From the NCBI GenBank assembly GCA_022823185.1, contig JAJDXQ010000005.1:1-64000 (forward strand): DNA of 64,000 nucleotides, in the 5' to 3' direction. This document shows, one piece after another, positions 7,886-53,195 of the stretch. A model generated the notes under the pieces. That model made no database searches. It worked only from the letters and a program-made list of their open reading frames with translations, and was not told where the DNA came from. Source of the DNA: Caldilineaceae bacterium. GTDB lineage: Bacteria; Chloroflexota; Anaerolineae; Caldilineales; Caldilineaceae. How positions within the stretch are numbered: the first letter of the stretch is position 1; each line of letters opens with the position of its first letter. The position numbers were made by a program, and so were the translations under genes.

Positions 7886-7900
7886 CGCTCTCTTCCCTTT

Positions 7901-9761: not shown

Positions 9762-9767
9762 TTCAGG

Positions 9768-9840: not shown

Positions 9841-9854
9841 TTCAGCCGAGCCAT

Positions 9855-9883
9855 ATTGTAGGTTTTCGGTGAGATATTGTCAA
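9855..9883 (-). promoter_or_regulatory. Promoter of tRNA-Lys
   Basis: On the minus strand, a perfect TTGACA (plus-strand 9878-9883) and TACAAT (9855-9860) are spaced by 17 bases, about 15 bases before the tRNA. The tRNA-Leu promoter at 55792-55820 has the same two boxes and spacing. Confidence 0.75.
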
Positions 9884-9944
9884 GTCGAATGCCAATGTAT
9901 TGCTCCTTGGTCGATCCGTCAAACCATTCCCAGGACGACTCTCC

Positions 9945-34534: not shown

Positions 34535-35041
34535 GTCCTGGTACCGGTCCTTGTCCACCCCTATAGACCAATTCTCGGCCTCTCTCGAGCGATTTTGGAC
34601 GGCGAACCTCGCCTTGCCCCCCGATTTTCCCATACAGTATCACATTGGTACGGGTCGCGAAAAATTGGTTCCGAATGGCGCAGTTTTCCTGTCCACCGAC
34701 CTGCAACGCCTTTCCAACCCGCCAGCCGTCAATCATCCCCTGCCAACCGGCTCCCTGGCCCCTCCTTCACCGGTCTCCACTCCACTCCAGGCCCCGCCCT
34801 GCCCCTCCGTGGATCAACCGCCTTTCCCCTTCCTTGAACACTGTTGCCGTCTATGCTAAATTGCCCTCACGGCAACAGCCAGCCAGCATGACCCAGTGCT
34901 GGGAACGGACTTTTCAGCCCCCTGCTACGCAGATCCGACAACCGGACCCGATTCCGCCTACATCCCTCCTACGAGAATGCTTGTCCCCCCTCATGTTCGC
35001 ATGTCCGAGGGATCGCGTTGACTCAAAACAGGGAGACGCAG
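34535..35041. other. Divergent spacer between copA and the dimethylformamidase-like gene
   Basis: No gene is supported in these ~500 bases. The plus-strand half carries the promoter at 34834-34862. On the copA side I see no convincing CueR or CopY operator, and the first 100 bases could still be coding if copA starts at 34633. Confidence 0.4.
34834..34862 (+). promoter_or_regulatory. Promoter upstream of the dimethylformamidase-like gene
   Basis: TTGAAC at 34834-34839 and TAAATT at 34857-34862 are 17 bases apart, with TGC directly before the -10 box (an extended -10). The leader to the start at 35042 would be about 175 bases. Confidence 0.5.
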
Positions 35042-37306
35042 ATGTCAACCGAGTTGATTGGCTACACAGACAGGCTGAGCGTCGCGCCGGGTGAAAAGAT
35101 TCGTTTCATGGTCAGCACGGACCTGCCGGCCTACAGTTCAGCCTTGGTTCGTTTGGTCCACGGTGATGAAAACCCCTCCGGACCCGGCTTCAAGGAACAG
35201 AGAGTGGACTCCGCCATCGACGGCGCCAGGCCCGGCCGAAAACAGTTCGCCCGCGCCGGCTCTTTCGTCCTTGTTGCAGACCAGCCCCCGCTCAGCCAGT
35301 TGACCAGTTTCACCATTCAGGCCTGGATCTTCCCCACTACGCCCTTGCTGGGAGAAACACAGGGCCTGCTGAGCAAATGGTCCGAACAGAAGGGCGGCTT
35401 CTGCCTCGCTGTCGGCGCCGATGGGGCCCTGGAGCTATGGCTGGGCAATGCCTCCGAGAGCCGTCGATTCAGTACCGACACGCCGATGCGGGCCCGCGAA
35501 TGGTACTTTGTCGCCGCCTCCTTTGACAGCCAGAGCGGGCGTCTGCGCCTGGTACAGGACGCCCTCGCCAACTGGCCTTCCGATTCATCATCCATCGGAG
35601 TTGACAGTCTGTGCCAGGCCCCCCCCTCCAGCGACAACGACCGGCCGCTTCTCCTCGCCGCGACCGGCGTCCAGAATTCTCCTGCCTCCACGCACGCGGC
35701 CAAAGGACTCTTCAATGGCAAGATCGATAGCCCCAGGCTCTACAGTCGAGCGCTGGAAGAGACCGAAGTCGACCAGCTGAGTCAGCACATTCCGCCCGCC
35801 GATGTGGCCGGCGACGATCTGGTCGCCGCCTGGGATTTCTCATTGAATCCCTCCTCGTCAAGAGTGGCAGACATCGGGAAACACTGCCTGCACGGCATCG
35901 CCGTCAACATGCCCGCGCGCGCGGCAACCGGACGTAACTGGAACGCCCAGAAGGCAGACCACAAGCAGGCTCCGACTCAGTACGGCGCCATCCACTTTCA
36001 CCAGGACGACCTTGAAAATGCCGGATGGCAACCGGACTTCGAGCTGACCGTGCCTGCAGGCCTGCGCAGCGGCGTCTATGCCGCACGCCTGCATGGCGAA
36101 GGAGTCAAGGACCATGTCCCCTTCATCATTCGACCGCCCATCGGAACGGCCCGAGCCCCCATTCTCTTCCTCGTGCCCACCTTCACCTACCTGGCCTATG
36201 CCAACGACCGCATGGATGCGGCCCACGCCCTCTTCGCCGACATCCCCTTCAGCGAATCCCGCCGGCACCCCCTCGATAGCTACCTTGCCGAGCATCCTGA
36301 GTTCGCGATGTCCCTTTACGACTCCCACTCAGATGGCTCCGGCTGTTGCTACGCTTCCAGCTTGCGCCCTCTCGTCAACATGCGCCCCGACTACCGCCAT
36401 ATCCTGACGGACAGCCCGCGCAATCTGGGCGCCGATCTCTACCTGGTTGACTGGCTCGAACAGGAAAACTTCGCCTACGACGTCGCCGCTGACGAGGATC
36501 TCCATCACGATGGCCCCGGCCTCCTGTCAAACTACAGAGTCCTGGTTACAGGCACACACCCCGAATACTGGACAGCCCAGATGATGGACGCGCTGGAACA
36601 GTTCCTTGCCCAGGGCGGCCGCCTCGCCTATCTGGGCGGAAACGGCTTCTACTGGGTGACCAGTGTCGATCGCGAGCGGCCGCACGTCATCGAAGTTCGC
36701 CGCGGCATGGGCGGGACGCGCGCCTGGAACTCCGCGCCCGGTGAGTGTCACCACAGCGCGACCGGAGAGCTCGGCGGGCTGTGGCGTCACCGAGGGCGTT
36801 CACCTAACAGACTCACCGGCATCGGCTTCACCGCCCAGGGCTGGGGAGATCCCGCGCCCGGCTACTCGCGCCAGCCCGGCAGCTTTGACCCAAGGGCGGC
36901 CTTCATCTTCGAAGGAATCTCGGAACGCGAGACCATCGGCGACTTCGGCTTGGTCTTCGATGGCGCCGCCGGAGACGAACTTGACCGCATCGACTTCAGC
37001 CAGGGCACGCCCCACCACACGCTCCTCTTGGCCTCTTCCGGGGGACACGGGCCGTCAATCAATCCGGTCATCGAAGACTTCCTCCAGGTTGACAGCAGGC
37101 TGCTCTCCAAAGACCAGACCAATGTCCGCGCCGACATGGTCTACTTCGAAACGCCAAACAACGGGGCCGTCTTTTCCGTGGGCTCGATCTGCTGGTGTGC
37201 CAGCCTGTCACACAACAACTACGACAACAACGTGTCCCGCATCACCCGCAATGTCCTGACCGCCTTCGCTTCGTCCCCGCAACTCCCTCCAGCGCAGGGA
37301 TCCTGA
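35042..37306 (+). CDS. N,N-dimethylformamidase large-subunit-like amidohydrolase
   Basis: Iron-dependent amidase-type protein of 754 residues, starting at the ATG at 35042 behind GGGAG. A LamG-like jelly-roll domain (about residues 90-250; TSFTIQAWIFPTT, REWYFVAASFD) is followed by the DMFase catalytic region: VPTFTYLAYANDRM, LYDSHSDGSGCC, then LVTGTHPEYWT and YLGGNGFYW. The Paracoccus enzyme holds iron with two Tyr and one Glu next to a His. The counterparts here would be Tyr386, Tyr426, Glu508 and His506, at nearly the same numbering. The small subunit is not found nearby. Substrate is probably an N-substituted amide, not proven. Confidence 0.8.
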   Translation: MSTELIGYTDRLSVAPGEKIRFMVSTDLPAYSSALVRLVHGDENPSGPGFKEQRVDSAIDGARPGRKQFARAGSFVLVADQPPLSQLTSFTIQAWIFPTTPLLGETQGLLSKWSEQKGGFCLAVGADGALELWLGNASESRRFSTDTPMRAREWYFVAASFDSQSGRLRLVQDALANWPSDSSSIGVDSLCQAPPSSDNDRPLLLAATGVQNSPASTHAAKGLFNGKIDSPRLYSRALEETEVDQLSQHIPPADVAGDDLVAAWDFSLNPSSSRVADIGKHCLHGIAVNMPARAATGRNWNAQKADHKQAPTQYGAIHFHQDDLENAGWQPDFELTVPAGLRSGVYAARLHGEGVKDHVPFIIRPPIGTARAPILFLVPTFTYLAYANDRMDAAHALFADIPFSESRRHPLDSYLAEHPEFAMSLYDSHSDGSGCCYASSLRPLVNMRPDYRHILTDSPRNLGADLYLVDWLEQENFAYDVAADEDLHHDGPGLLSNYRVLVTGTHPEYWTAQMMDALEQFLAQGGRLAYLGGNGFYWVTSVDRERPHVIEVRRGMGGTRAWNSAPGECHHSATGELGGLWRHRGRSPNRLTGIGFTAQGWGDPAPGYSRQPGSFDPRAAFIFEGISERETIGDFGLVFDGAAGDELDRIDFSQGTPHHTLLLASSGGHGPSINPVIEDFLQVDSRLLSKDQTNVRADMVYFETPNNGAVFSVGSICWCASLSHNNYDNNVSRITRNVLTAFASSPQLPPAQGS

Positions 37307-37741: not shown

Positions 37742-38539
37742 ATGCAATCAGCCGATAATTCACGAGGCGAGAACGGCTACAAAACCTTGACCCAAACCCA
37801 GGTCGCCCGTTTCTGGGAAGACGGCTTCCTGGTCGTCGGAAAGGTGCTCGACGACGACCTGATCGAGGCAATGCGCGCCGAGTACGACGCCGAATTCTCC
37901 CCGGCCCGCCGCGCGGAACAGCCCATCCGAAACCTGGCCGTCTTCGAAGATGACCACGACCATGGTGAGGACGACGAACAGGAGATGCTTCAGTTCATGC
38001 AGATATCCGAGCACAACCTGCAGTTCAACAGGCTCACCTACCATAGCGGCATCCTCGACATAATCGAAGACCTGATCGGCCCCAACATCCAGCTGTTCCA
38101 CAACCAGGCCCTGTACAAACCCCCGCGCCACGGAGGCCCCATCTTCTGGCACCAGGACAATGCCTACTGGAGATGCCTGCCCGCCAACCTGGTCAGCTGC
38201 TGGCTCACCCTCGACGACGTCGACCTGAGCAACGGCGCCATGCAATTCATCCCAGGCTCACATCTGCGCCCAATGCTCCACGACCAGGCCCAGGGCAGCG
38301 ATGTCCTCCTTGACATGGGCAAGGCGGTCGACGACAGCCAGGCTGTCGTCGGCGACCTGCCAGCAGGAGGCATTACCCTGCATCACTGTCAGACCTTGCA
38401 CCGCACCGCGCCCAACACGACCGACCGCCAGCGACGCGCCCTCGCCATCCACTTCATGACGCCCGGCACCAAGTCCGCCCGCACAGGGGAGACAATCCCG
38501 GTGAACTTCAGCCATCCCATGCTCCGCATGCGTGTCTGA
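37742..38539 (+). CDS. Phytanoyl-CoA dioxygenase (PhyH) family oxygenase, copy 1
   Basis: Fe(II)/2-oxoglutarate-dependent oxygenase of 265 residues. The iron site is HxD in IFWHQDNAYW with the distal His in HCQTLHRTAPN. The 2-oxoglutarate-binding Arg follows about ten residues later (DRQRRALAIHF). N-terminal family block: VARFWEDGFLVVGKVLDDD. Start at 37742 after AAGGAG. It probably hydroxylates or demethylates a small metabolite. It lies upstream of a sugar kinase and is one of three PhyH genes within 11 kb. Confidence 0.88.
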   Translation: MQSADNSRGENGYKTLTQTQVARFWEDGFLVVGKVLDDDLIEAMRAEYDAEFSPARRAEQPIRNLAVFEDDHDHGEDDEQEMLQFMQISEHNLQFNRLTYHSGILDIIEDLIGPNIQLFHNQALYKPPRHGGPIFWHQDNAYWRCLPANLVSCWLTLDDVDLSNGAMQFIPGSHLRPMLHDQAQGSDVLLDMGKAVDDSQAVVGDLPAGGITLHHCQTLHRTAPNTTDRQRRALAIHFMTPGTKSARTGETIPVNFSHPMLRMRV

Positions 38540-38641
38540 ATGCAAGTCCTCTGGTAGGAGACGTCATACCGACCGAAGCGTAAACCAATGAAGGCATGCA
38601 ACTGAGATGAAACTGAAACGCCGCGGCGTAATTCGACTGCC

Positions 38642-39691
38642 GTGAGTCCCGCCAACCCATTTCTTGCCATTGGCAACTGCACGCTCGACGACGTAGTTAC
38701 TCCCGACGGCCAAATCTCTCCGCGGCAGCTTGGCGGCAACGCCGTCTACACTGCCGCCGGAATGCGCCTCTGGAACGTTGACGTCAGCCTCGTCAGTGTC
38801 GTCGGCGCCGACTATCCCGCCGTCTGGTTGGAGCAGTTGGCCGACGCCGGAATCGACATCTCCACCGTCGCCCGCATCGAAGAACCCCATCTCCTCCGCG
38901 CGCGATCCTTTTATTTCCCCGACGGCAGTCGCACCGATCGCCTCAAGGAGGCCCAAGCGCTCCTTCCCGCCAACGCCGGCGAAACGCTCGATCTCGAAAG
39001 CGAGTACGCCGACACCGGCAGCCCTCTCCATCGCCGTATCTGGCCCTCCTTCTGTCCCGACCTGTCCCAGTGGGCCGACCAGCTGGGTGCTGCAGCCTAC
39101 GCCCACATAGCGCCCGGGCCGCTTCCAAGAAATCGCGCAAACGCCTCTTTTCTCAAGCGCCGCCGCCGCGGCCAGGTCGAGATTACATTCGACTGGCCCT
39201 GGTGGGACTGGGACCAAGAGGCACATGCCGACGTCGACCTTCTCCGCAACATTGACTACCTGCTCCCCAGCATCGAGGAACTGACCATTCACGCCGATGC
39301 CGCGGAGGGCGCAAAAACCGTAACGGATAACCCCGACGGCCACGCCTTCGACGTTGCGCGCCGGCTGCTCGCGAAAGGTCCGAAAGGCGTCGGCGTAAAG
39401 ATGGGCGCGCGCGGAATGCGCCTTCTCCTTCAGAACCAGAAGCGCTGGTTCGACATCCCAACCTTCCCCACCACAGCCGTCGACCCCACCGGAGCCGGCG
39501 ACGCCTTTTGCGGCGGCTTCCTCGTCGGCCTCGCCCACACGGACGACCCTGTCGAGGCCGCCCTCTACGGCGCCGTCTCGGCCTCATTCATCATCGAAGA
39601 TTTCGGCGTCCTACACTCTCTCCAGGTCAACGCCCGTCAGGCTCGTTCGAGGTTGCGTCGTCTCCAAGCGCTCCTCGCCCTCCAGAAATAG
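38642..39691 (+). CDS. PfkB-family carbohydrate kinase
   Basis: Ribokinase-like sugar or nucleoside kinase, 349 residues, GTG start at 38642. It shows the N-terminal family pattern LAIGNCTLDDVV and LGGNAVYTAAGMRLWN, and the C-terminal signature AVDPTGAGDAFCGGF with the catalytic base Asp. The Asn/Gly-rich motif and substrate residues suggest a sugar; the type is not determinable. About 100 bases separate it from the PhyH gene upstream, and a new promoter overlaps its end at 39697-39725, so it closes its transcription unit. Confidence 0.85.
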   Translation: MSPANPFLAIGNCTLDDVVTPDGQISPRQLGGNAVYTAAGMRLWNVDVSLVSVVGADYPAVWLEQLADAGIDISTVARIEEPHLLRARSFYFPDGSRTDRLKEAQALLPANAGETLDLESEYADTGSPLHRRIWPSFCPDLSQWADQLGAAAYAHIAPGPLPRNRANASFLKRRRRGQVEITFDWPWWDWDQEAHADVDLLRNIDYLLPSIEELTIHADAAEGAKTVTDNPDGHAFDVARRLLAKGPKGVGVKMGARGMRLLLQNQKRWFDIPTFPTTAVDPTGAGDAFCGGFLVGLAHTDDPVEAALYGAVSASFIIEDFGVLHSLQVNARQARSRLRRLQALLALQK

Positions 39692-39696
39692 GCAGG

Positions 39697-39725
39697 TTGA
39701 CATTAAAATATGCTTTTGTTAGATT
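39697..39725 (+). promoter_or_regulatory. Promoter of the rightward SBP-permease-hydrolase operon
   Basis: A perfect TTGACA at 39697-39702 and TAGATT at 39720-39725 are spaced by 17 bases, just after the kinase stop codon. The leader to the start at 39842 is about 110 bases. Confidence 0.65.
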
Positions 39726-39841
39726 TGGGCAGATTCCCGCGGCAATCCTGCTCTCCCGCCATTCTCATCCCGTCCCCCTGCAGGCGGCGACATTCATTCC
39801 ACTCGTAGTTGAAAGAACACATTCAAGTTGAGGAGACCAAC

Positions 39842-41485
39842 ATGAAATCGACGCATCGTGTGACGAGACATTTGCTGATTCTGGTTCTCTTGAGTTCGCT
39901 CTTTATCGCCTGTGTCGCCGCGCCGGTGACGCCCGACGAATCCGCAACCACCTCTGAATCGATGGAGAGCGAAGGTCCAAAGATGGGCGGTGTCGTGACC
40001 GGGTTCGTCTCCTCCGACCCGCAGAACTTCGATCCGGCCGCCATCGCCGGTTGGGATCAAGGGGTCATCGCTCCCAATCTGCTGGAAGGTCTCTTCCGTC
40101 TTTCGCCCGACGGCCGCGAAATCGAACCGGCCATCGCCGAGAGCTTTGACGTTTCCGAGGACGGAAAAACCTGGATCTTCAATCTGCGTTCAGGAGCGAA
40201 ATTCCACAACGGGCGTGAAATCACCGCGGATGACTTCAAGTATAGCTTCGAACGCGTGCTGAATCCGGAAACCAGGAGCCCCAAGGCGTGGATGCTTTCG
40301 ATCGTGGTTGGCGCAGGTGACTTCCAGGACGGCGCAGCCGACGAAGTCACCGGTATCCGCGTCGTGGACGCTCAAACCCTGGAGATTGAGCTGGCCGAAC
40401 CTCTGGCGCCATTCAAGTCCATGCTCGCCAGCATCAATTTGGCAGTCGTACCCCAGGAGGAAGTTGAAAAGTGGGGCGAAGACTTCGGCCAGAACGTCGT
40501 CTCAGCCGGGCCATTCTCATTGGGTGAGTGGAATCTCAACCAGGACGTAACGCTCAACGCCTTCGAGGAGTACTGGAACGGGAGACCCTATCTGGATGCC
40601 GTGACCTTCCGCTTCATCGGCGATGAAAACACGCGTATCGTCGAACTGGATGCCGGCAGGTTGGATATGGCCTGGGTTCCTCCGGCCCACTGGGAAAGGT
40701 TCAGCACTGACCCGGTTTACAAGGAAAAACTCGGCTGGGCCGAGACGTTCCACACCGATTTCATCGCCGTAAACCTGGAAAGTGAGCCTTTCGGCGCCAA
40801 TCCCAAACTGCGGCAGGCCGTTCGCTACGCGCTCGACCTGGATGCCGTGATCGCCAGCCTGCAGGGCCGCGCCACGGTTGCCCAGGGTATCCTCCCTCCC
40901 GGCCTGCTTGGCTTCGATGAAAGCGCCATGCTGAACTATCCCGTCAATCTCGAGTCCGCCAAAGCGCTGATGGCCGAGGCCGGCTACGCCGACGGCCTTC
41001 CCGGAACGTTCGATGTCATTCTCCCGCCGTGGGGCAACCTGATCAAGCTCCTTGAAATCTATCAAGCGAACCTGAAGGAGATCGGCATCAATATTGAGAT
41101 CAGGCCGACCGAGTTCGGGCCCTATATGGAAGCGCTTGAAACCGGCAACTACGACCTGGCCTGGATGTACCGGGTAACAGACTATGCGGACCCGGATGGC
41201 TTCTACTTCCCGCTCATGCACTCCGATAACCTCGGCGCGGGCGGCAACTACGCACGCTATGCCAACGCCGATGTGGACGCCAACATCGCTACAGCCCGCG
41301 CCACCATCGACGATGCGGAACGAGCTCGCCTATACCAGGCCGTGGACGCTCAGTTCGCCGAGGACCTCCCATACATTCCCTTGACGCACAACATCTACGT
41401 CGACGTATCCCGGCCCCGCGTCCAGAACTATGTCCCGTCTCCGATGGACACGCACATGTTCCACAGAGTGTGGGTGGAAGAGTAG
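39842..41485 (+). CDS. Dpp/Opp-type ABC transporter substrate-binding lipoprotein
   Basis: Family 5 extracellular solute-binding protein of 547 residues, from the ATG at 39842 behind GAGGAG. The signal peptide ends in the lipobox LFIAC followed by VAAP, much as in the liv binding protein. Family blocks are GGVVTGFVSSDPQNFDPAA, NLLEGLFRLSPDG, WIFNLRSGAKFHNGREITADD and a C-terminal ENLPYIPL-like block (FAEDLPYIPLTHN). Family 5 ligands range from peptides to nickel, opines and glycosides; this one is unknown. It is first in an operon continuing with a PhyH gene and two permeases. Confidence 0.9.
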   Translation: MKSTHRVTRHLLILVLLSSLFIACVAAPVTPDESATTSESMESEGPKMGGVVTGFVSSDPQNFDPAAIAGWDQGVIAPNLLEGLFRLSPDGREIEPAIAESFDVSEDGKTWIFNLRSGAKFHNGREITADDFKYSFERVLNPETRSPKAWMLSIVVGAGDFQDGAADEVTGIRVVDAQTLEIELAEPLAPFKSMLASINLAVVPQEEVEKWGEDFGQNVVSAGPFSLGEWNLNQDVTLNAFEEYWNGRPYLDAVTFRFIGDENTRIVELDAGRLDMAWVPPAHWERFSTDPVYKEKLGWAETFHTDFIAVNLESEPFGANPKLRQAVRYALDLDAVIASLQGRATVAQGILPPGLLGFDESAMLNYPVNLESAKALMAEAGYADGLPGTFDVILPPWGNLIKLLEIYQANLKEIGINIEIRPTEFGPYMEALETGNYDLAWMYRVTDYADPDGFYFPLMHSDNLGAGGNYARYANADVDANIATARATIDDAERARLYQAVDAQFAEDLPYIPLTHNIYVDVSRPRVQNYVPSPMDTHMFHRVWVEE

Positions 41486-41544
41486 GAATCGGCGCGGGCC
41501 TTGGTGGACAGTATGTATCAGGAGTTCTGAAACCGACAGACTGT

Positions 41545-41582
41545 GCGCCGCACGCGCTGCCTTCCCCGAACGCGTGCGGCGC
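41545..41582 (+). promoter_or_regulatory. Intercistronic stem-loop after the binding-protein gene
   Basis: GCGCCGCACGCG (41545-41556) and CGCGTGCGGCGC (41571-41582) form a perfect 12-bp stem with a 14-base loop. The hairpin lies between the binding-protein stop and the next start at 41605. There is no T-run, so complete termination is unlikely; transcript stabilisation or partial attenuation is more plausible. Confidence 0.65.
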
Positions 41583-41604
41583 GCCCTGCCGCATGGAGGA
41601 CCAC

Positions 41605-42732
41605 ATGACGGTGAAAGAAAGTACGGCCGACAGTTACTTCAGCGCCGGCAAAGAACTGGCATACACCTTGGGCAACCGCGGCCCGATTCGCTTCAATGAA
41701 GATGGATCCCTCGACCAGGAAATCGTTGACGCCTACTGGCGCTGCGGATTCTATGTCCTGGAGGGCGTCTTGAGCCCGGCTGAGCTCCGCGACCTCCAGG
41801 ATGACATGGAACATGCTTTGGAACGCGCGCCCTTCACCAAGGACGCAACCGTTGACACCCGGGGCCGACCTGCCCTTGGCAACGACCTGGAGCGTCCTAC
41901 GTATCGCTTTGCCAGACCACTGAGCGATCCCTATGGCGGCACAGACCTGGTCAGCGGCCGCCATCCAGCCAAGATGAGCGAACCGGCGCCGCCAGAAGGC
42001 GCTCCTGAATTCGTCATTTCCAGTATCGGCAGTCCCCTCCAGATCATGGACGCCTGCCTCCGCCTCTATGGTCACCCTCAACTGCTGGCAATCGCCGAAA
42101 CGATTAACGGGCCCGACTTTACCCCCTTTACCGAATCGGTCATCGTCAAACCGGCCGGCCTCGGTCCCTCTGTCGCGTGGCACCACGACGGAACCACCCA
42201 CTGGGACAGTCCCGACCTCGACGAAGGAACCCACGGCTTCAATTTCATGGCGCAGCTCTATGGCAGCACTGCCGAGAACGGTGTCTGGCTGTTGCCGGGC
42301 TCCCACAAACTGGGCAAACTGGACATCAAAAGGATGGTTGACGAGAACGGCTCGGACCGGTTGCCCGGCGCCGTGCCCATGATCTGCGAGCCAGGCGACG
42401 TTGTGATGTCCAATCGACAGGCCCTCCACGCCTCCTTTGCCAATACCTCTCCTGACAGAAGAATCACCATAAACTTCGGATTCCACCGCCGTCGGTCCGT
42501 CCTGAATGCCAGGACCGTCCACGCAGGGCAGGAAACCGTCTACGATGCCGACCGCATCCGTGAACGCTCTCGCGTCATCGCGCTTGCGATCGACGCACGC
42601 CAACAGCGCTTCCCTCACGAACCGCGCTACGTCTACCATCCTCTCGCCGGCGATGAAGACGCCAACCGCTGGACAGAGGAGACCCGCGCCGCCATTCTCA
42701 GGAACTACAATCTCAAAGATCTTGCGATCTGA
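41605..42732 (+). CDS. Phytanoyl-CoA dioxygenase (PhyH) family oxygenase, copy 2
   Basis: Fe(II)/2-oxoglutarate oxygenase, longer than the others at 375 residues. The ATG at 41605 follows GGAGG; the ORF-track start at 41470 would run through the stem-loop and the end of the preceding gene. The iron site is HxD in SVAWHHDGTTHW with distal His in NRQALHASFANTS, and the Arg pair PDRRITINF binds 2-oxoglutarate. It has an N-terminal extension and a C-terminal helical part (VIALAIDARQQRF). Its place between a binding protein and the permeases implies that it acts on the imported compound. Confidence 0.87.
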   Translation: MTVKESTADSYFSAGKELAYTLGNRGPIRFNEDGSLDQEIVDAYWRCGFYVLEGVLSPAELRDLQDDMEHALERAPFTKDATVDTRGRPALGNDLERPTYRFARPLSDPYGGTDLVSGRHPAKMSEPAPPEGAPEFVISSIGSPLQIMDACLRLYGHPQLLAIAETINGPDFTPFTESVIVKPAGLGPSVAWHHDGTTHWDSPDLDEGTHGFNFMAQLYGSTAENGVWLLPGSHKLGKLDIKRMVDENGSDRLPGAVPMICEPGDVVMSNRQALHASFANTSPDRRITINFGFHRRRSVLNARTVHAGQETVYDADRIRERSRVIALAIDARQQRFPHEPRYVYHPLAGDEDANRWTEETRAAILRNYNLKDLAI

Positions 42733-42836
42733 GGTAGCCTCAGTCGCTTCAGCCGCACTCTTGCACACCACAATCCGCCCAGTCAGTTCCGCTGGCATGA
42801 GTGTCCATTCCCTGATGGGGCTGGCGCCGTCCTGAC

Positions 42837-43763
42837 ATGCTCGGTTACTCTGTCCGCCGCCTGATTCAAATCGTCCCCATTCTCATAGGGCTGGTAACCG
42901 TTCTCTTCGCATTGCTCAACATCCTTCCCGGTGATCCCGCCCGCATGATGGCGGGTCCCTTCGCCGATCCCGACGTGGTCAAGACGATTCGCGAGGAGAT
43001 GGGCTTCAACCGTCCCCTGTGGGTTCAGTATCTCGATAATCTCGGAAACCTGGCGCGCGGTGAGTTCGGCCGCTCCTATCAGTCCCGTCGCCCCATTTTG
43101 CGGGACCTCATTGAGGTTTTCCCCAAAACCATACAGCTGGCCGTCGCCGCCGAAGTCGCCAGCGCCCTGGTCGGAATCTGGTTAGGCGTCATCGCAGCCG
43201 CCCGCCGCAACGGTTGGGCCGACCGGCTGATCATGACAATAGCGGCCCTCAATCTCTCCTTTCCCTTGTTCTGGCTTGCTCTGATGCTGCAAATCGCGTT
43301 TGCCGTTTTTCTTCGGCTTCTCCCGCCGTCAGGTTATGGCATCGGCTTCGACCGCTTCATAATCCTGCCCGCCTTCACATTGGCCCTGCCCTCGCTGGGG
43401 CTCCTCGCCAGGATCACCCGCGCCGCGCTCCTGGAAGTCATGGCAGAGGACTACATACGCACCGCCCGCGCCAAAGGCCTTCGCAACGCGCTTGTGATGC
43501 GCCGGCACATGCTCCCCAACGCGCTCATCCCCATCGTATCCACGATAGGAACCGACTTCGTGCGTCTTCTCGGCGGAATCCCGATCATAGAGGTCATCTT
43601 CGCCTGGCCCGGCATCGGAAAATACGCCTATGATGCTCTTGTCTTTCGCGATCTCCCCGCCCTACAGGCTTCGGTAGTCGTCTTGGCTGTATCCGTATCC
43701 CTCGTCAACTTGGCCGTGGATCTCCTGTATGCGTACATCAATCCGCGAATTCGCTACGTCTGA
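42837..43763 (+). CDS. Dpp/Opp-type ABC transporter permease (DppB-like)
   Basis: Inner-membrane channel subunit, 308 residues, starting MLGYSVRRLIQIVPILIGL as DppB proteins do. About six membrane segments are visible. The coupling loop includes MAEDYIRTARAKGLRNALVM (EAA motif) followed by RHMLPNALIPIVSTIG. Its 3' end overlaps the next permease gene by 35 bases. No ATPase gene follows in this operon. Confidence 0.9.
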   Translation: MLGYSVRRLIQIVPILIGLVTVLFALLNILPGDPARMMAGPFADPDVVKTIREEMGFNRPLWVQYLDNLGNLARGEFGRSYQSRRPILRDLIEVFPKTIQLAVAAEVASALVGIWLGVIAAARRNGWADRLIMTIAALNLSFPLFWLALMLQIAFAVFLRLLPPSGYGIGFDRFIILPAFTLALPSLGLLARITRAALLEVMAEDYIRTARAKGLRNALVMRRHMLPNALIPIVSTIGTDFVRLLGGIPIIEVIFAWPGIGKYAYDALVFRDLPALQASVVVLAVSVSLVNLAVDLLYAYINPRIRYV

Positions 43764-44631
43764 CTGGCGCCGCTTTCGACGGTCTCGCCTGGCTGTGGTC
43801 GGCGTCGGCGTCATTCTTCTCTTTGCCTTGCTTGCAGCCTTTGCCCCCTACATCGTAACCGACCCAACCCAGATCGAAATGCGCCGCGAACAGGACGGCC
43901 AGACGCTTAGGCCTCCCTTCCCGCCCAACCGGCTCAATCTTTTTGGCACCGATCAACTGGGACGGGACATCTTCGCACGGGTCGTCTACGGGCTGCGCAC
44001 CTCTCTCATCGTCGGCATCCTGGTGCGCGGCATCTCAATGGTTGCCGGTGTCCTCCTTGGCCTCATCTCAGGCTTCTTCCCCCGTTACGTTGACGACCTG
44101 ATCATGCGCTTCACCGACATCATGCTTGCCTTTCCCGTCATCCTGTTGGCGATGACCGTTACCGCTGTCCTTGGGCCGGGCCTGGTCACCGTTTGCGTGG
44201 CTTTGGCCCTGGTAGCCTGGCCCGATGTGGCCCGGCTGGTCAGAGGCCAGGCCCTGTCGATCAGGGGGCAGACTTATGTGGAAGCGGCGCGGTGCATCGG
44301 CGCCGGCAGCTGGCGCATCCTGCTCCGTCACGTTCTGCCCAATTGCATGGGGCCGATTATCGTCGCCTTCTCCATGGGAATTCCGGGCGCAATCATGTAT
44401 GAGGCCGGCCTCAGCTTTTTCGGCTTTGGCATTCAGCCGCCCACGCCCAGTTTGGGCTCAATAATCAGCGACGGGCGCGGCTACATCACGGTCGCGCCTT
44501 GGTACCCCGGCTTTCCCGGTCTCGTTCTTACCATTCTCGTCCTGAGTGTCAATCTGGTCGGAGACGGACTGATCGACGTGATGAACCCGCGCGCGGCCTT
44601 GGGGATGCAAAACAGCCGGTCCGCGACCTGA
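43729..44631 (+). CDS. Dpp/Opp-type ABC transporter permease (DppC-like)
   Basis: Second channel subunit, 300 residues. It has the DppC N-terminal pattern (DWRRFRRSRLAVVGVGVILL) and the block RLNLFGTDQLGRDIFARVVY. The EAA-type coupling loop is SIRGQTYVEAARCIGAGSWR, followed by RHVLPNCMGPIIV. It starts inside the preceding permease gene. Downstream, 110 bases on, comes an amidohydrolase rather than the usual dppD/dppF ATPase genes. Confidence 0.9.
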   Translation: MRTSIREFATSDWRRFRRSRLAVVGVGVILLFALLAAFAPYIVTDPTQIEMRREQDGQTLRPPFPPNRLNLFGTDQLGRDIFARVVYGLRTSLIVGILVRGISMVAGVLLGLISGFFPRYVDDLIMRFTDIMLAFPVILLAMTVTAVLGPGLVTVCVALALVAWPDVARLVRGQALSIRGQTYVEAARCIGAGSWRILLRHVLPNCMGPIIVAFSMGIPGAIMYEAGLSFFGFGIQPPTPSLGSIISDGRGYITVAPWYPGFPGLVLTILVLSVNLVGDGLIDVMNPRAALGMQNSRSAT

Positions 44632-44741
44632 TTTGGTTGCGCGCGCGAGCGTCTGCTACACTCAAGTTCGTGTATCCGCAGCGGCAGCAGATCGCCAGGC
44701 GGAGAGCGCCCCGATGCCGATGGCCGACAGGAGATTCTCCG

Positions 44742-45917
44742 ATGGAATCTGACGGTCCGTTTGTCAAAGTTCGCAAAGTCGAAGCCTCCTCCAATCCCGT
44801 GCAGGACGAGGATCTTGACCAGCTCGGTGAAGAGCTTTCCGAACTTACAGTCGTTGACGTTGACGTCCACGTCGACGACACGCTCATGTTCATGTTGGAC
44901 TACATGGAGGGACACTTCCGCAAACGGCTGGAAACCGTGCTCCATGCGGACTTCAAGGGAGAGCCGGGCAACTCGCTACGCAATATGATCGCTCACATCG
45001 CCTGGCTCGGCTCGTCGTATGACAAGCCGCCGCGCGCCAAACTGGCCACCAAAGAGGACCTGCTGGCCCGAATGGAAAGAGGTATTATAGACTACAGCAT
45101 TCTGTTCCCCAGCGAACTGCTCCCCATCGGCTACCTCCCGGAAAAGGACTGGGCCGCCGCGCTTGCCAAGGCCTACAACCAGTACATGGTTGAAGCCTAT
45201 CAGAACACCAACGGTGTCAAAATCGCCATCGTTGTTGCCCCGCAGCACCCCGTTTCCGCCGCCGAAGAAATCGACCGCCACGCCAGCCATCCGGACGTTG
45301 TCAGCGTCTGCCTTCCCGACGTCGGCGTCAATCCACCCATTGGGGATGAGAAGTACGAGCCAATCTATGCCGCGGCCGCCAGGCACAATCTCCCCATCTG
45401 CTTCCATGGCATCGAGGCGCTCATCCATGATGACTATCCGCTGCGCGTTGCCCATTTCCATACCCTCATGCAGGTCAACAGCATGGGCTTTCCCTTTACG
45501 TCAATGCTGCAAATCATGTCCGTTGTATGCGCCGGCATCCCTGTCCGCTTTCCCAACCTGAAGTTCGCGGTGCTTGAGGCCGGGCTTACGTGGATGCCCT
45601 TCATCATGTACCGGCTTGACGCCGCCTATCTCCGCTATCGAACTGAACTGCCCGCGCTCGAAAAGAAGCCCAGCGATTACATCCGCGACTGGTACATCGG
45701 CACGCACGAGCTCGAGGCCCTTCCGCGACGCGGCGACCTGGTAAAGCTAATCGAACTTTACCAGGGACAAGACACGACCATGTGGGCCTCCGACTGGCCC
45801 CATCTTGAACGCGACCTCATCGCAGGTTTCATGCGCTACGAAATGGACGAAACGCTGCGCCGCAAAATCCTCGGCGGCAACGCGCTTGACTTCTTTGGGT
45901 TGGCGCCGCCAAAATGA
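44742..45917 (+). CDS. Amidohydrolase-2 family metal-dependent hydrolase
   Basis: TIM-barrel hydrolase or decarboxylase of 391 residues, starting at the ATG at 44742 after AGGAG. The N-terminal metal motif is D-x-H (VVDVDVHVDD). A mid-barrel His is in ICFHGIEAL, a second in RVAHFHTLM, and the catalytic Asp is in WASDWPHLE. Family members hydrolyse or decarboxylate lactones, amides or aromatic acids, so the substrate remains open. It is coupled to the Rieske gene by an ATGA overlap, which suggests the two work in one pathway. Confidence 0.85.
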   Translation: MESDGPFVKVRKVEASSNPVQDEDLDQLGEELSELTVVDVDVHVDDTLMFMLDYMEGHFRKRLETVLHADFKGEPGNSLRNMIAHIAWLGSSYDKPPRAKLATKEDLLARMERGIIDYSILFPSELLPIGYLPEKDWAAALAKAYNQYMVEAYQNTNGVKIAIVVAPQHPVSAAEEIDRHASHPDVVSVCLPDVGVNPPIGDEKYEPIYAAAARHNLPICFHGIEALIHDDYPLRVAHFHTLMQVNSMGFPFTSMLQIMSVVCAGIPVRFPNLKFAVLEAGLTWMPFIMYRLDAAYLRYRTELPALEKKPSDYIRDWYIGTHELEALPRRGDLVKLIELYQGQDTTMWASDWPHLERDLIAGFMRYEMDETLRRKILGGNALDFFGLAPPK

Positions 45918-46306
45918 CGCAAGAAAAGCAACCCGACACCAAGTCCCGTTCGCGACGCAAAGTGCCCATCATGCCCGCGGTAGACTTTCCACACGGCGCC
46001 CGCGTAGAGGTGCAGGTCGGGCGCGTGCGCATCGCAGTCTTCAATATCAATGGCGAATACTTTGCCCTTTACGGCCGTTGTCCCCACCAGTCCGCGCCGC
46101 TAAGCCGCGGCCGCCTGCAGGGAACAGTAATCTGCAACAAGGAAACCTGCTGGGAAACCAAATGGGTCCACGACGGCGAGGTGTTGGTCTGTCCCGGCCA
46201 CGGAATGGAATACCATGTTCGCAGCGGAAAGGCCTTTGGCTACGACCTCAAACTGCGCACATACGAGGTTGTCGTTGAGGAAGGGCAAGTGACACTGGTC
46301 CTGTAA
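45914..46306 (+). CDS. Rieske [2Fe-2S] ferredoxin-like protein
   Basis: Stand-alone Rieske protein of 130 residues. The cluster ligands are Cys/His in GRCPHQSAPLSRG and in VCPGHGMEYHV. The first 30 residues are basic and Ser/Lys-rich (EKQPDTKSRSRRK) and not a signal peptide, so it is cytosolic. Such proteins deliver electrons to oxygenases. The overlap with the amidohydrolase gene places it in the catabolic operon; the acceptor could be a Rieske oxygenase encoded elsewhere, since PhyH enzymes need no ferredoxin. Confidence 0.88.
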   Translation: MTQEKQPDTKSRSRRKVPIMPAVDFPHGARVEVQVGRVRIAVFNINGEYFALYGRCPHQSAPLSRGRLQGTVICNKETCWETKWVHDGEVLVCPGHGMEYHVRSGKAFGYDLKLRTYEVVVEEGQVTLVL

Positions 46307-46377
46307 AGGACTGATCTGACGGCGCCCGCCATCTGAAGGCGCGCCGCCAGCCGCGCATCTCCCAACTTGAGGCCAAT

Positions 46378-47622
46378 ATGACCACTGCAAGAATCACAGC
46401 GCGCCCAGTCCGACAGGCGGAATTCGGCGAACCAATCCCCGTTACAATCGACGACATGCTGAACGAAATCAGCAACCAGGGCCCTGCCATCCCTGCGGTC
46501 ATCGATTCGGTCCAACCCCAGCTCGAAGCCCTGGACCCCTCTCTGTTCGCCAGCGCGGCGCACATCTACCTGACCGGCTGCGGAGACTCCTACTTCGCCG
46601 GCCTCGCGGCCCGCTACAGCTTCGCTCGCCATGCCGGTGTCCCGACCGAACCGCTCGAAGCCCTTGAGTTCGGACGCTATGCCGCCGAATTTGTCCCTCC
46701 CGGCTCTCTCGTCTTTGCAATCTCCAACTCCGGAAAAGCCACGCGCTCAGTCGAAGCGCTGGTAAACGCCCGCCTGGCCGGCGCCCACGCGGTCGCAATC
46801 ACCGGCAACCCGGATGGGTGGTTGGCCCAGGAAGCCGACACAATCCTGAATCAAAGCGTCCAAATCTCAGGTGAAGTGATCGGAATGCCCAGCAACCTGG
46901 CCGCGGAAGAGGATGCCGAGAAACCCCGCCGCGGCTCATTCGGGCTGGTCAATTACCTGGCCAGTCTGACGACGCTCTATCTGATCGCTTTCCAGACCGG
47001 AGTCGTGCGCGGCCGCCTCTCAGAGCGGCAGGCCGACGCCTTGAGGGCCGAGTTGCGTTCTACTTCCGAACTCATCACCGAAACCGTTCGGATCTGTACA
47101 CCGCCCGCCCAGGCCTACGCCGAGCAGGTCAAGGAGATCGAATCGTACACGATTCTGGGTTCCGGCCCCAGTCTTGCCACCAGCCTTTTCTACGCGGCCA
47201 AAACCTATGAACTGCCGCGAGTTTACGGCGTCGCGCAGGAATTGGAGGAATGGGCGCATGAGCAGTTCTTCCTCACAGGTCCGGGTACACAGGTCCTCTT
47301 CATCGCCCCCAGTGGCCGGTCCGTCAGCCGGGTCCGGGAATTGCTTCACACGGCCCAGACCATGGGCGCCCGCTGTGCCGTTATCACCGACAGCGGCAAC
47401 CCGGAGCTGGCCAAGGCTGCAGATGTAACCCTCCCAGTCGCCGGCGCCGTGTCCGAACCGCTTTCCCCGCTCGTCTACTGCGTTCCCGGTCAACTCTTCG
47501 CCACATACCTGGCGAAGGCCCGCGGGCGTCTGGCCTTCGAATTCGACTCGCCCCTGCAGTATGAAATGAACATGCGCACGATTCAGGAAAGTCAGTTGTT
47601 GGAGGTGCATCCGGGGCCGTGA
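46378..47622 (+). CDS. Two-domain SIS sugar isomerase/deaminase-like protein
   Basis: The 414-residue protein has two SIS (sugar isomerase) domains. The first has YLTGCGDSYFAGLAA and ISNSGKATRSVEAL; the second has YTILGSGPSLATSLF and APSGRSVSRVRELL. It resembles the isomerase half of GlmS and the AgaS/FrlB-type deglycases but has no glutaminase domain. A role on an amino-sugar phosphate or a sugar-amine adduct is plausible. It is the last gene of the rightward operon, ahead of the terminator at 47778-47809. Confidence 0.83.
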   Translation: MTTARITARPVRQAEFGEPIPVTIDDMLNEISNQGPAIPAVIDSVQPQLEALDPSLFASAAHIYLTGCGDSYFAGLAARYSFARHAGVPTEPLEALEFGRYAAEFVPPGSLVFAISNSGKATRSVEALVNARLAGAHAVAITGNPDGWLAQEADTILNQSVQISGEVIGMPSNLAAEEDAEKPRRGSFGLVNYLASLTTLYLIAFQTGVVRGRLSERQADALRAELRSTSELITETVRICTPPAQAYAEQVKEIESYTILGSGPSLATSLFYAAKTYELPRVYGVAQELEEWAHEQFFLTGPGTQVLFIAPSGRSVSRVRELLHTAQTMGARCAVITDSGNPELAKAADVTLPVAGAVSEPLSPLVYCVPGQLFATYLAKARGRLAFEFDSPLQYEMNMRTIQESQLLEVHPGP

Positions 47623-47777
47623 AGAAGCCGGACGGATTAGACTCGGTGAGGAACTGTTATTCGCCCTTCCTTGCCTCCCTGTCCGGATCGGACAAAGTCG
47701 AAGCGACCGAATTTTCCGCCGTCCTTCTCCTGCCACCCGTGACAGCCGCCAGAAAGTCATCTCCGATTGCTCGCATG

Positions 47778-47809
47778 AAACAGCCCGCCCGGTCCGAGGC
47801 GGGCTGTTT
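47778..47809. terminator. Bidirectional terminator between the two convergent operons
   Basis: AAACAGCCCGCC (47778-47789) pairs perfectly with GGCGGGCTGTTT (47798-47809) around an 8-base loop. Each strand ends the stem with three T residues. It lies midway between the SIS gene and the leftward PhyH gene. Confidence 0.75.
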
Positions 47810-47897
47810 GGCGCGTAGCCATGAAGCCACAGTACCTATTCAATTAGTGAATGGAATTCGCGTGAAGTGAAAATTGATGGCGCCGGTTCGGCCGCCG

Positions 47898-48773
47898 CTA
47901 TTCGCCCACCACTTCCACCGGCTCCTTCTCTACGGGAGTGAGTTCGTACTGCTGCCAGTGGTACTGAAACGCAGTCGACTTCCAACCCTCGTAGACCTCC
48001 TCCCAGGTGAGACGGCCCTGATGTGGCGTCAGGACCTTGTCCATCACCGGATCAGAAGCCCTCTGATAGCGGTAGTCCACCGAGAGCCGAATCCGATTCC
48101 CGGACAAATTGGGCAGTCCCTGGTGCACTGTATGGCTGTGAAAGAAGAGAATATCTCCTGATTCGAACGGGCTCGAGACCCACTCGCCCCCGATCTTATC
48201 GAAATGCGCCCGCAGTCCCCCCGCGCCGAGTGAACGTGAAACAGGCAGGATCCCGTACTTGTGGGACCCCGGCAGCACGCTCAACCCGCCCATCCTGTGC
48301 GGACAGTCGCCCAACGGCAGCCACGCCGTCCATACGTCCGGCGTCCCCTGGATGTGCACGAAATCCTGATGCGCCGGCGTCGTCTGTTCCAGGTTCGTCG
48401 GAAAGATGAACCTCGCAATGTTGCTCGGCTGAAGCAGGACGTCGTCTCCCAGCAGATGCCCGACGACGCGCAGTATCGCCGCATCGTGGGCAAGCGTGTG
48501 GAATGATTCGAGCCGTTGGACTTTGTCATAGACAGGTGAAAACTCTGGCTCACCCGAAACGTGCGGAGGATGGCTCGTGATCGCCTCCAACGGGTCCGTG
48601 CCGGCATTGATCCAACCGACGTCCTGCAAAACTCCGGCGATGTCCCGCCGGGCCTCCAGGACGGCTCCCTTGTCCACAAAGTCCCGGATAAACAGGTATC
48701 CGTCCCGTTCCGCACGACTTCGCAAACTCTCCTCATCATTCTTGACATCGGTCGAATCGACAAAAGGGTTCAT
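47898..48773 (-). CDS. Phytanoyl-CoA dioxygenase (PhyH) family oxygenase, copy 3
   Basis: Fe(II)/2-oxoglutarate oxygenase of 291 residues. The iron site is HxD in TTPAHQDFVHIQG with distal His in HSHTVHQGLPNLSG, and NRIRLSVDYRYQ contributes the Arg. The start at 48773 follows GGAGGAG. It is the last gene of the leftward Opp-type operon, 75 bases after the DppC-like permease, mirroring the PhyH gene in the facing operon. Sequence divergence from copies 1 and 2 is large, so they are not recent duplicates. Confidence 0.88.
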   Translation of the reverse strand: MNPFVDSTDVKNDEESLRSRAERDGYLFIRDFVDKGAVLEARRDIAGVLQDVGWINAGTDPLEAITSHPPHVSGEPEFSPVYDKVQRLESFHTLAHDAAILRVVGHLLGDDVLLQPSNIARFIFPTNLEQTTPAHQDFVHIQGTPDVWTAWLPLGDCPHRMGGLSVLPGSHKYGILPVSRSLGAGGLRAHFDKIGGEWVSSPFESGDILFFHSHTVHQGLPNLSGNRIRLSVDYRYQRASDPVMDKVLTPHQGRLTWEEVYEGWKSTAFQYHWQQYELTPVEKEPVEVVGE

Positions 48774-48847: not shown

Positions 48848-49999
48848 CTAAACGTGGGTATAGGGGTCCGAGGCGTCGCGCAGCCCATCGCCCACAAAGT
48901 TAAATGCCAGAATGCTGACCACCACAAACAGGGTAGGAAGCAGTAACCAGGGCGACAGCGCCAGTACTCGAATCGCCTGCGCGTCCTTAAGCAGAACCCC
49001 CCAGCTGATCGCCGGCGCCTGCAAGCCCAGGCCAATGAAGCTGAGCGCCGTCTCGCCCAAAATCATCTGCGGAATCGCCAGCGTCAGACGAGCGATGATG
49101 TAACTCATGAACGAAGGCAGCAGATAGCGAAAGATTATGCGCAGATTCCCGGCTCCGTCAAGCTCCGCCGCCCCCACAAAGTCTTCCTCTCGCAACGCGA
49201 AAAAGCGCCCGCGCACCACCCGCGCGATACTGGTCCAGCCAACAGTCGACAGGATAATCACAATCGCGAAGTAAGTCCGCACCACCGGCCAGTCGGAGGG
49301 CAACGCAATGCTCAGCGCCATCCATAACGGCAGCGTCGGCAGTGCCCGCAGTGACTCGATCACGCGCTGGATCACCATGTCCACAGTGCCTCCGAGATAG
49401 CCCGAAAGCCCGCCAAACAGGATGCCGAGGAAAAAACTCATCGCCACGCCCACCAGCCCAATTGTCAGCGAGATGCGCGCGCCATAGATAATGCGCGTAA
49501 ACAGGTCCCGCCCAACCGTATCCTGGCCCAGCAATGAGAGCCTTGCCTCCGGATCCTGCAGGCCGAACAGGTGAATGTCACTCTCAATTAGACCCCAGAG
49601 CTTGTACTCGTCGCCCTTAACGAACAGCCCAAGCGGCTGCAGCACGGTCTCGTCTTCCACGAAAATCGCCGCATAAGTGACGCTGTCGAGTGTCTTCTCA
49701 AATGGATGGATAAAGGGCCGCAGATGGAATCGGCCTTCAGGATCGATGAAGCGAATCTTGTGTGGAGGCGCCAGCGTCAGGTCTTCCCGAAAAATGTACG
49801 GATCGTACGGCGCCACGAACTCTGCGAAAATCGCCACCAAGTAAAAGATAACCAGCACGGCCAGCGAAACAACCGCCAGCTTATGCTGCAGAAAGCGCCA
49901 GCGAATGAGTTGCCACTGTGAAGCGACAAGAACTCGCTGGTCCGCCTGCTCCTCTGCGGCCGCTGTCTCCAACCGCGCCGCTGATTCGGCTTCCGTCAT
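48848..49999 (-). CDS. Dpp/Opp-type ABC transporter permease (OppC-like)
   Basis: Channel subunit of 383 residues from the ATG at 49999, which overlaps the upstream ATPase stop (ATGA). It is longer than a typical DppC because of an extra ~90-residue extracytoplasmic segment between the first helix and the block LLGQDTVGRDLFTRIIYGAR. The EAA loop is REEDFVGAAELDGAGNLR with RYLLPSFMSYII after it. Such insertions are common in OppC proteins of this phylum. The ORF-track start at 50158 would intrude into the ATPase gene. Confidence 0.9.
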   Translation of the reverse strand: MTEAESAARLETAAAEEQADQRVLVASQWQLIRWRFLQHKLAVVSLAVLVIFYLVAIFAEFVAPYDPYIFREDLTLAPPHKIRFIDPEGRFHLRPFIHPFEKTLDSVTYAAIFVEDETVLQPLGLFVKGDEYKLWGLIESDIHLFGLQDPEARLSLLGQDTVGRDLFTRIIYGARISLTIGLVGVAMSFFLGILFGGLSGYLGGTVDMVIQRVIESLRALPTLPLWMALSIALPSDWPVVRTYFAIVIILSTVGWTSIARVVRGRFFALREEDFVGAAELDGAGNLRIIFRYLLPSFMSYIIARLTLAIPQMILGETALSFIGLGLQAPAISWGVLLKDAQAIRVLALSPWLLLPTLFVVVSILAFNFVGDGLRDASDPYTHV

Positions 50000-51084
50000 G
50001 CCCGTTCTCTCTCCGGTTCTTCTGCTCCGCCTGAGATCCCTGCCAGCTCTAGTTCGCTGGCGAAGTGGCACGCCGCGCGATGCGAAGGCCCTTCCTCCCC
50101 ACCAACCTCCACCAGTTGCGGGATCTCCCGCCGGCATCGGTCCTCCGCGTAGCGGCAACGTGGGTGAAACGCGCAGCCGGGCGGCAGGTTTCCGGGATCG
50201 GCTACTTCGCCCGCAAGCACAATCCGCGCCCGGTTCTTGGTATCCGGATCGGGATTGGGCGCGGCTGAGATCAGCGCCTCTGTATAGGGGTGCCGGGGAT
50301 TCGTGTACAGCTCCTCGGTTTCCCCGATCTCTACAATCTTGCCCGCGTACATCACGGCAACGCGGTCCGCTTCGTACTTTACGACAGCCAGATTATGCGC
50401 CACGAAGAGATACGTCAGCCCAAGCTGGTTCTGCAACTCCTTGAGCAGATTCAGAATCTGCGCCTGCACTGAGACATCCAGCGCTGACACCGCTTCGTCG
50501 GCAATGACGACTTTTGGTGAAAGCGATAGAGCCCGGGCAATCGCGATACGCTGACGCTGCCCGCCGCTGAAAGCATGGGGATACCGGTTCATCGTCGACG
50601 GATCGAGCCGCACCAGGCGCAGCAGCTCCGCCACCTTGTTCCGCAGCGCCTCCTGACTTTCGACCATCTTGTGAATGACCAGGGGCTCGCCGATAATCTG
50701 CAGCAACGTCATGCGCGGGTTGAGCGAGGAGTACGGGTCCTGGTAAATCATGCGGATATTGCGGCGCGCGGCCTTGAGCTCGGCCTTTTCCATCTGCGTA
50801 AGATCCATCGGCGCCGAGTCTCCGATGCGGAACAGGACGTGGCCGGCAGTCGGCCGCTGCGCCTGAATGATGCAGTGGCTGGTCGTCGTCTTCCCGCATC
50901 CGCTCTCCCCGACAAGGGCCAACGTCTCGCCCTCGTTCAGGTCAAAGTTTACATCGTCAACCGCCTTCACCACGCCCACCTGGCGGCGCAGAAAACCGGT
51001 CTCGATTGGAAAATACTTCACGAGATTGCGCACCGAGATGATCGCCCTGTCTTCCATTTGACCAACGCCGCCCGCCCCGCTCAT
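49996..51084 (-). CDS. Oligopeptide/dipeptide-type ABC transporter ATP-binding protein (OppF-like)
   Basis: ATPase of 362 residues. It has Walker A VGESGCGKTT, signature FSGGQRQRIAIARAL, and Walker B VVIADEAVSALDVSVQ, with Ala in place of the usual Pro after DE. The C-terminal oligo_HPY domain has its cysteine-rich PGCAFHPRCRYAEDRC. Because the facing operon lacks ATPases, this subunit may serve both transporters. It overlaps neighbours on both sides by four bases. Confidence 0.93.
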   Translation of the reverse strand: MSGAGGVGQMEDRAIISVRNLVKYFPIETGFLRRQVGVVKAVDDVNFDLNEGETLALVGESGCGKTTTSHCIIQAQRPTAGHVLFRIGDSAPMDLTQMEKAELKAARRNIRMIYQDPYSSLNPRMTLLQIIGEPLVIHKMVESQEALRNKVAELLRLVRLDPSTMNRYPHAFSGGQRQRIAIARALSLSPKVVIADEAVSALDVSVQAQILNLLKELQNQLGLTYLFVAHNLAVVKYEADRVAVMYAGKIVEIGETEELYTNPRHPYTEALISAAPNPDPDTKNRARIVLAGEVADPGNLPPGCAFHPRCRYAEDRCRREIPQLVEVGGEEGPSHRAACHFASELELAGISGGAEEPERERA

Positions 51085-53125: not shown

Positions 53126-53142
53126 CGATCGCGTCTCAGTTG

Positions 53143-53170
53143 TGGGAGGCCGCTGACGCGGCCTCCCACC
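53143..53170 (-). promoter_or_regulatory. Intercistronic stem-loop between binding-protein and permease genes
   Basis: GTGGGAGGCCGC (53143-53154) and GCGGCCTCCCAC (53159-53170) make a perfect 12-bp stem with a 4-base loop in the 70-base gap. No T-run follows on the minus strand, so it probably protects or attenuates rather than fully terminates. Confidence 0.65.
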
Positions 53171-53195
53171 GGTTCACATGATGGTCAATCAGCCA

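Follow-up and report, generated by a model that had tools for sequence, protein, structure and literature searches.

We analyzed a 64,000-nucleotide stretch of a Caldilineaceae bacterium (Chloroflexota), positions 1 to 64,000 of contig JAJDXQ010000005.1, hereafter called the window. It is a part of a 114.8-kb contig in a genome of 5.17 Mb (G000), whose close relatives are named Caldilineaceae metagenome-assembled genomes (MAGs), presumably mostly of sponge origin, as read off the isolate names only. An earlier note had described the region 37742–48773 as a possible catabolic island, in which three PhyH oxygenases, an amidohydrolase, a Rieske protein, and a protein with two SIS domains would act after uptake. 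Pfam searches confirmed all genes named in it. The core of the locus is nine genes at 37742–47622; the DMFase (N,N-dimethylformamidase)-like gene, the third PhyH gene, and the second importer are associates at most. The core genes and the neighboring features are listed below, with the former amidohydrolase given as a predicted amidohydrolase-related dinuclear oxygenase (ARO).

37742–38539, plus strand: PhyH1, Fe(II)/2-oxoglutarate oxygenase, first core gene (PF05721, E 8e-32)
38642–39691, plus strand: PfkB-family kinase, core (PF00294, E 2e-23; TGAGDAF motif)
39697–39725: promoter-like TTGACA-17-TAGATT upstream of the next gene, a consensus match only
39842–41485, plus strand: family-5 (Opp/Dpp-type) solute-binding lipoprotein (SBP), core (SBP_bac_5, PF00496, E 2.5e-91)
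41605–42732, plus strand: PhyH2, Fe(II)/2-oxoglutarate oxygenase, core (PF05721, E 2e-17)
42837–43763, plus strand: Opp/Dpp-type permease B, core (BPD_transp_1, PF00528, E 8e-39)
43729–44631, plus strand: Opp/Dpp-type permease C, core (BPD_transp_1, PF00528, E 3e-30)
44742–45917, plus strand: ARO, predicted terminal monooxygenase, core (Amidohydro_2, E 5e-29; six AibH2 ligands)
45914–46306, plus strand: small Rieske ferredoxin, predicted to donate electrons to ARO, core, ATGA-coupled (PF00355, E 5e-15)
46378–47622, plus strand: two-SIS isomerase, deaminase or deglycase with the fold of the GlmS isomerase domain, last core gene (two SIS stretches in Pfam)
47778–47809: terminator-like hairpin between the core and the convergent PhyH3 (fold −24.6 kcal/mol, z −4.2), spotted by eye and absent from the listing of the consensus terminator scan
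47898–48773, minus strand: PhyH3, Fe(II)/2-oxoglutarate oxygenase, associate (PF05721, E 3e-20)
48848–55256, minus strand: second complete Opp/Dpp-type importer (C, F, D, B, SBP), hereafter importer 2, associate
35018–37306, plus strand: iron amidohydrolase similar to the DMFase large subunit, neighbor (PF20254, E 8e-103)

We consider it probable that the nine genes form a conserved catabolic operon that combines uptake, oxygenases, and sugar-phosphate steps. All enzyme families involved are known, but their nine-gene combination appears to be undescribed, as the earlier note had held for its gene set; our literature search was limited. Comparison with genome G013 yielded dN/dS of 0.04–0.21, demonstrating clear purifying selection. 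No Rfam elements were found within the locus.

We compared the locus across the genus in 16 further genomes, several of them with contigs that stop inside the block. ARO and this neighborhood are present in all 16, as far as the contigs extend. The usual order is the DMFase-like gene, PhyH1, PfkB, SBP, PhyH2, permease B, permease C, ARO, Rieske, and SIS, and then convergent PhyH3 and importer 2. Synteny within the genus was rejected as the sole proof of a unit, as unrelated flanks are conserved too. As a natural control, we used G004, a closed, rearranged chromosome of the same genus. There, the genes from PhyH1 to SIS are contiguous and retain their order, while the left flank, including the DMFase-like gene, is found at 4.82 Mb, away from the core, and the right flank begins ∼14 kb past SIS. 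As the nine genes have stayed contiguous while both flanks have been rearranged, we take them as the core. The DMFase-like gene, which goes with the left flank, was rejected as a core member. G004 lacks an ortholog of PhyH3 (the best match reaches 46%), and neither G004 nor G010 has importer 2 close to the core; in G010, PhyH3 is within the block without importer 2, and in G012 both are within the block. Hence, the coherent catabolic unit proposed earlier, with uptake, oxidation, and sugar-phosphate genes inherited together, stands for the nine genes, whose synteny is kept in the genus and also through rearrangement, but not for PhyH3, located behind the terminator-like hairpin; a single unit of all three PhyH genes is not supported.

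Six species (G002, G003, G006, G011, G014, and G016) have genes for an energy-coupling factor (ECF) transporter (S, A, A, T; for example, L039:5074–8906) between SBP and PhyH2. Its S component shows weak similarity to those for riboflavin and to ThiW. After SIS, several members of the genus have a second PfkB gene (PfkB2), a complete or partial IF-2B-like gene, or both.

Outside the genus, a scan for ARO over 85,000 GTDB genomes was used; of the 80 loci found, 62 lie outside the genus and outside two loci, L117 and L118, which are the only close relatives beyond the genus. L117, from an Anaerolineales UBA3001 MAG, has kept permease C, PfkB, ARO, and Rieske (62%, 51%, 72%, and 65% identity, respectively), with the PfkB ortholog immediately upstream of ARO. 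In L118, ARO and Rieske are 69% and 67% identical to those of the window. Among 396 sampled genomes of the class, none outside the genus yielded a further ortholog at E 1e-90. On present evidence, the full nine-gene core is a feature of one genus.

Could the locus instead be a set of unrelated small catabolic units standing side by side, in an order reflecting close kinship and with no single pathway? The genome is rich in PhyH genes and ABC importers. It yields 109 PhyH matches, and PhyH triplets within 10.5 kb are observed seven times, compared to 2.25 expected at random, with at least one triplet expected in 88% of random placements. Given the 109 PhyH genes, three of them in 11 kb are little evidence alone; as chance clustering of PhyH genes could stand from the window alone, we relied on G004. 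The syntenic unrelated flanks and the separation of PhyH3, importer 2, and the DMFase-like gene also fit unrelated units. However, the nine-gene core survives in G004 despite the rearrangement of both flanks, PfkB stays beside ARO in L117, and the ECF and PfkB2–IF2B insertions of the sister species are found inside the block, which has not been dispersed. We therefore regard a chance assembly of units as unlikely and retain the nine-gene operon.

The GG..N and TGAGD motifs of the PfkB protein are intact. No NCBIfam equivalog reaches its cut-off for either PfkB or SIS, and the assignment of these proteins to a named equivalog was rejected, as all matches were below the cut-off. The SIS protein retains S347, S349, K485, E488, and H504 of GlmS, the region of K603 being unalignable. 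Its match to 3eua, used for the comparison with FrlB/FraB deglycases, has E 8e-5 only. Its AlphaFold model has a mean confidence score (pLDDT) of 90, and the best Foldseek matches are the isomerase domains of GFAT/GlmS; the fold search does not separate isomerases, deaminases, and deglycases. With only SIS domains in its 414 amino acids, and thus without the N-terminal glutaminase domain, the protein is ruled out as a full GlmS (glucosamine-6-phosphate synthase).

In other Chloroflexota, relatives of the SIS protein (31–40% identity) are located among genes encoding nucleoside hydrolases, PsuG-like proteins, adenine deaminases, BtpA, and PfkB kinases. At least one gene for a nucleoside hydrolase, a PsuG-like protein or an adenine deaminase was found at 11 of 20 such SIS loci compared to none of the 62 ARO loci (Fisher p ∼1e-8 with kinship ignored; 7 of 12 at one locus per genus). 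Four nucleoside-salvage loci (L085, L092, L096, and L099) combine SIS, PfkB, and BtpA with IUNH, PsuG or adenine deaminase, the SIS and PfkB subfamilies being 32–37% and 30–34% identical to those of the window. Unlike the window core, these loci carry glycosidases and lack ARO, Rieske, and PhyH genes. We found no description of SIS/BtpA/PfkB nucleoside loci in the literature searched. In addition, PfkB2 and a gene similar to eIF2B, MtnA, and R15P isomerase lie beside the ARO block in the sister species and in L117 (L039:15207–17167; L117:3575–5565). In NCBIfam, the latter gene comes nearest to the S-methylthioribose-1-phosphate and ribose-1,5-bisphosphate isomerase families, with scores under the cut-off. 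G001, G005, and G014 have a PfkB2 match without IF2B at the block, and no IF2B homolog was found in the G000 genome at E 1e-5. As the SIS relatives lie among nucleoside-salvage genes, and the sister species add an aldose-1-phosphate-isomerase-like gene, we tentatively suggest a pentose or nucleoside-like conjugate as the most likely class of substrate, the hints, to which the ECF S component of the sister species adds, being circumstantial.

More specifically, the operon might serve an undescribed oxidative breakdown of a modified nucleoside or another N-pentoside in sponge-associated Chloroflexota, with Opp-type (in sister species, ECF-type) uptake, removal of substituents by ARO and the two Fe(II)/2-oxoglutarate enzymes, and subsequent sugar-phosphate steps by the kinase and the SIS (and eIF2B-type) proteins. 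We hold this version with low confidence; if true, AROs would gain a physiological role not seen for them before.

The kinase and the SIS protein could also belong to catabolism of an Amadori or amino-sugar conjugate, phosphorylated by PfkB, processed by SIS as an FrlB/FraB-type deglycase or a NagB-II-type deaminase, and trimmed at the aglycone by the oxygenases. The frl and fra operons for fructoselysine and fructose-asparagine indeed share the logic of a sugar kinase, a two-SIS enzyme, and an importer; residues of the GlmS E488/H504 type are present, and fructoselysine 6-kinase and NagB-II are among the below-cutoff NCBIfam matches. Yet these matches are far under the curated cut-offs, and neither PfkB nor SIS of the window has an equivalog-level match, while frl and fra have no oxygenases. 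In both sequence and fold, the SIS protein is closest to the GlmS isomerase domains, and its relatives elsewhere sit with nucleoside genes. We regard an Amadori-type route as unlikely.

The earlier scheme included a hydrolysis step, which is not supported. The product of 44742–45917 belongs to PF04909 and is nearest to known AROs, its best PDB matches being 8sm7 (E 2e-45), 8sm9, 8sm6, 8sm8, and 6m1w_B (range of E from 2e-45 to 3e-32). These structures are of AROs described in PMC10811679 and of AibH2 (PMC7782822, PMC10401708), 8sm7 being one of the candidate AROs characterized in the former. Decarboxylases such as 5-carboxyvanillate decarboxylase and ACMSD match far more weakly (E 4e-11 or worse). 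All six metal ligands of AibH2 (PMC7782822), namely D25, H27, H211, E265, D337, and H340, are present as D41, H43, H222, E279, D351, and H354, and they are invariant in an alignment reaching 36–39% identity. Therefore, the predicted function as a dinuclear (Fe2 or Mn/Fe) O2-dependent monooxygenase, rather than a hydrolase, is well supported by homology.

The downstream Rieske protein has the C56-x-H...C-x-x-H96 motif, and its ATGA overlap with the ARO gene, noted earlier, was confirmed in the sequence, CAAAATGACGC. Since the former amidohydrolase has the six AibH2 ligands, and its closest solved relatives are AROs, this Rieske protein is most likely the ferredoxin of ARO. A Rieske gene adjoins the ARO homolog in ∼57 of the 62 loci outside the genus and L117/L118, which span Chloroflexota, Actinomycetota, Bacilli, Bradyrhizobium, and archaea; it was association with a Rieske gene that led to the discovery of AROs (PMC10811679, PMC10401708). 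A true amide or glycoside hydrolase, with the Rieske protein serving another oxygenase or being incidental, would agree with the Pfam name Amidohydro_2 and with the non-redox nature of most characterized PF04909 enzymes (PMC10401708), but is very unlikely given the full set of three histidine and three carboxylate ligands, the nearest solved structures, and a Rieske gene that is nearly always adjacent, with no Rieske oxygenase alpha subunit in the core.

The monooxygenase assignment can be compared with two described systems. The 2-aminoisobutyrate monooxygenase AibH1H2-AibG-AibF of Rhodococcus wratislaviensis shares with the window a PF04909 oxygenase with the six ligands, an adjacent small Rieske gene, and a transporter in the cluster. 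It is distant in sequence, and the window has a single oxygenase subunit without an AibH1 counterpart, its core lacks an AibF-like reductase, and PfkB, SIS, and PhyH partners take the place of the D-MeSer enzymes. SfbO and other AROs (from Litorilinea aerophila and others; PDB 8SM6–8SM9) share the sequence family, the metal ligands, and the Rieske neighbor, but their operon is different, and the anion-pocket residues R232, R235, and W341 of SfbO are S247, F250, and L355 in the window ARO. As this pocket is not conserved, the substrate should differ from that of SfbO, and a transfer of the SfbO substrate (sulfonates) was rejected. Other ARO–Rieske pairs were seen in G000 on contigs C8 (∼43.5–44.7 kb), C30 (∼4.6–6.9 kb), and C20; the C20 locus (L226, G000:C20:163000–181000, ∼6864–10416) has PhyH upstream, two ARO-like proteins, and Rieske in a row.

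The three PhyH proteins are divergent, as had been claimed, with mutual identity of only ∼25%. All three have the HxD...H triad and the following arginine, invariant among the orthologs of each protein, with the residues picked out by eye: H137/D139/H220/R231 across seven orthologs of PhyH1, and H193/D195/H275/R286 in PhyH2. The nearest solved structure is EvdO1 for PhyH2 (E 1e-16) and 1-deoxypentalenic acid 11-beta hydroxylase for PhyH3 (E 3e-15). A biosynthetic or tailoring cluster is suggested by the solved PhyH relatives, which include EvdO1, EvdO2, SnoK, and deoxypentalenic acid hydroxylase, and by the biosynthetic ARO PtmU3, both enzyme types acting in natural-product pathways, but it is highly improbable given the importer components, the kinase and isomerase, the lack of polyketide synthase, nonribosomal peptide synthetase, and terpene synthase genes among the window genes examined, and the catabolic role described for the best ARO relatives (PMC10401708).

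Taken as a catabolic operon, the core would work as follows. The Opp/Dpp-type importer would take up a small organic compound; there are no ATPase genes in the core, and ATPases would come from elsewhere, perhaps from importer 2. PhyH1, PhyH2, and ARO would hydroxylate C–H bonds, probably those adjacent to N or O, leading to the removal of groups. Electrons would reach ARO via its own Rieske ferredoxin from an NAD(P)H reductase whose gene lies outside the core. PfkB would phosphorylate the sugar moiety, and the two-SIS protein would isomerize, deaminate or deglycate the sugar phosphate, feeding it into central metabolism. These steps are listed without a fixed order, and PhyH3, importer 2, and the DMFase-like protein would be optional. 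What we observe is gene content, gene order, conserved active-site residues, and the retention of the core through rearrangement; the pathway steps are inferred.

Several points weigh against such an operon. The core contains no reductase or regulator gene, and genus-level synteny is partly background, as unrelated flanking genes are also syntenic. No PhyH or SIS gene was seen on the short contigs of L117 and L118, and PhyH genes are rare near ARO elsewhere (2 of 62 loci). With identities of just 31–40%, the SIS relatives may have a gene context that does not apply to the window, and SfbO, given its different pocket, offers no guide to the substrate. Overall, the earlier interpretation is partly supported.

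AROs (AibH2, SfbO, PtmU3) are recently recognized monooxygenases that are able to use Mn/Fe, and substrates are known for few of them. With an ARO joined in one conserved operon to a kinase, a sugar-phosphate isomerase, and two Fe(II)/2-oxoglutarate oxygenases, the range of possible chemistry becomes smaller and a physiological substrate becomes testable. The change from amidohydrolase to monooxygenase would also correct a likely misannotation that recurs across phyla. No description of PhyH expansion in sponge Caldilineaceae was found in the literature searched; some of the 109 PhyH genes in this genome may serve to process compounds in a sponge holobiont.

Finally, the DMFase-like gene at 35018–37306 had been overlooked in the earlier note. 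It would fit the N-methylated amide suggested there as a substrate, but its linkage to the core is unstable. Its product matches DMFase 6lvb with E 3e-159 and shares the 2-Tyr-1-Glu iron ligands of the large subunit of Paracoccus N,N-dimethylformamidase: Y399, Y440, and E521 (PMC7686228) correspond to Y394, Y434, and E516, all conserved. A DMFase small subunit was not identified in the vicinity, although no search aimed at it was made. The protein is thus probably an active amide hydrolase.

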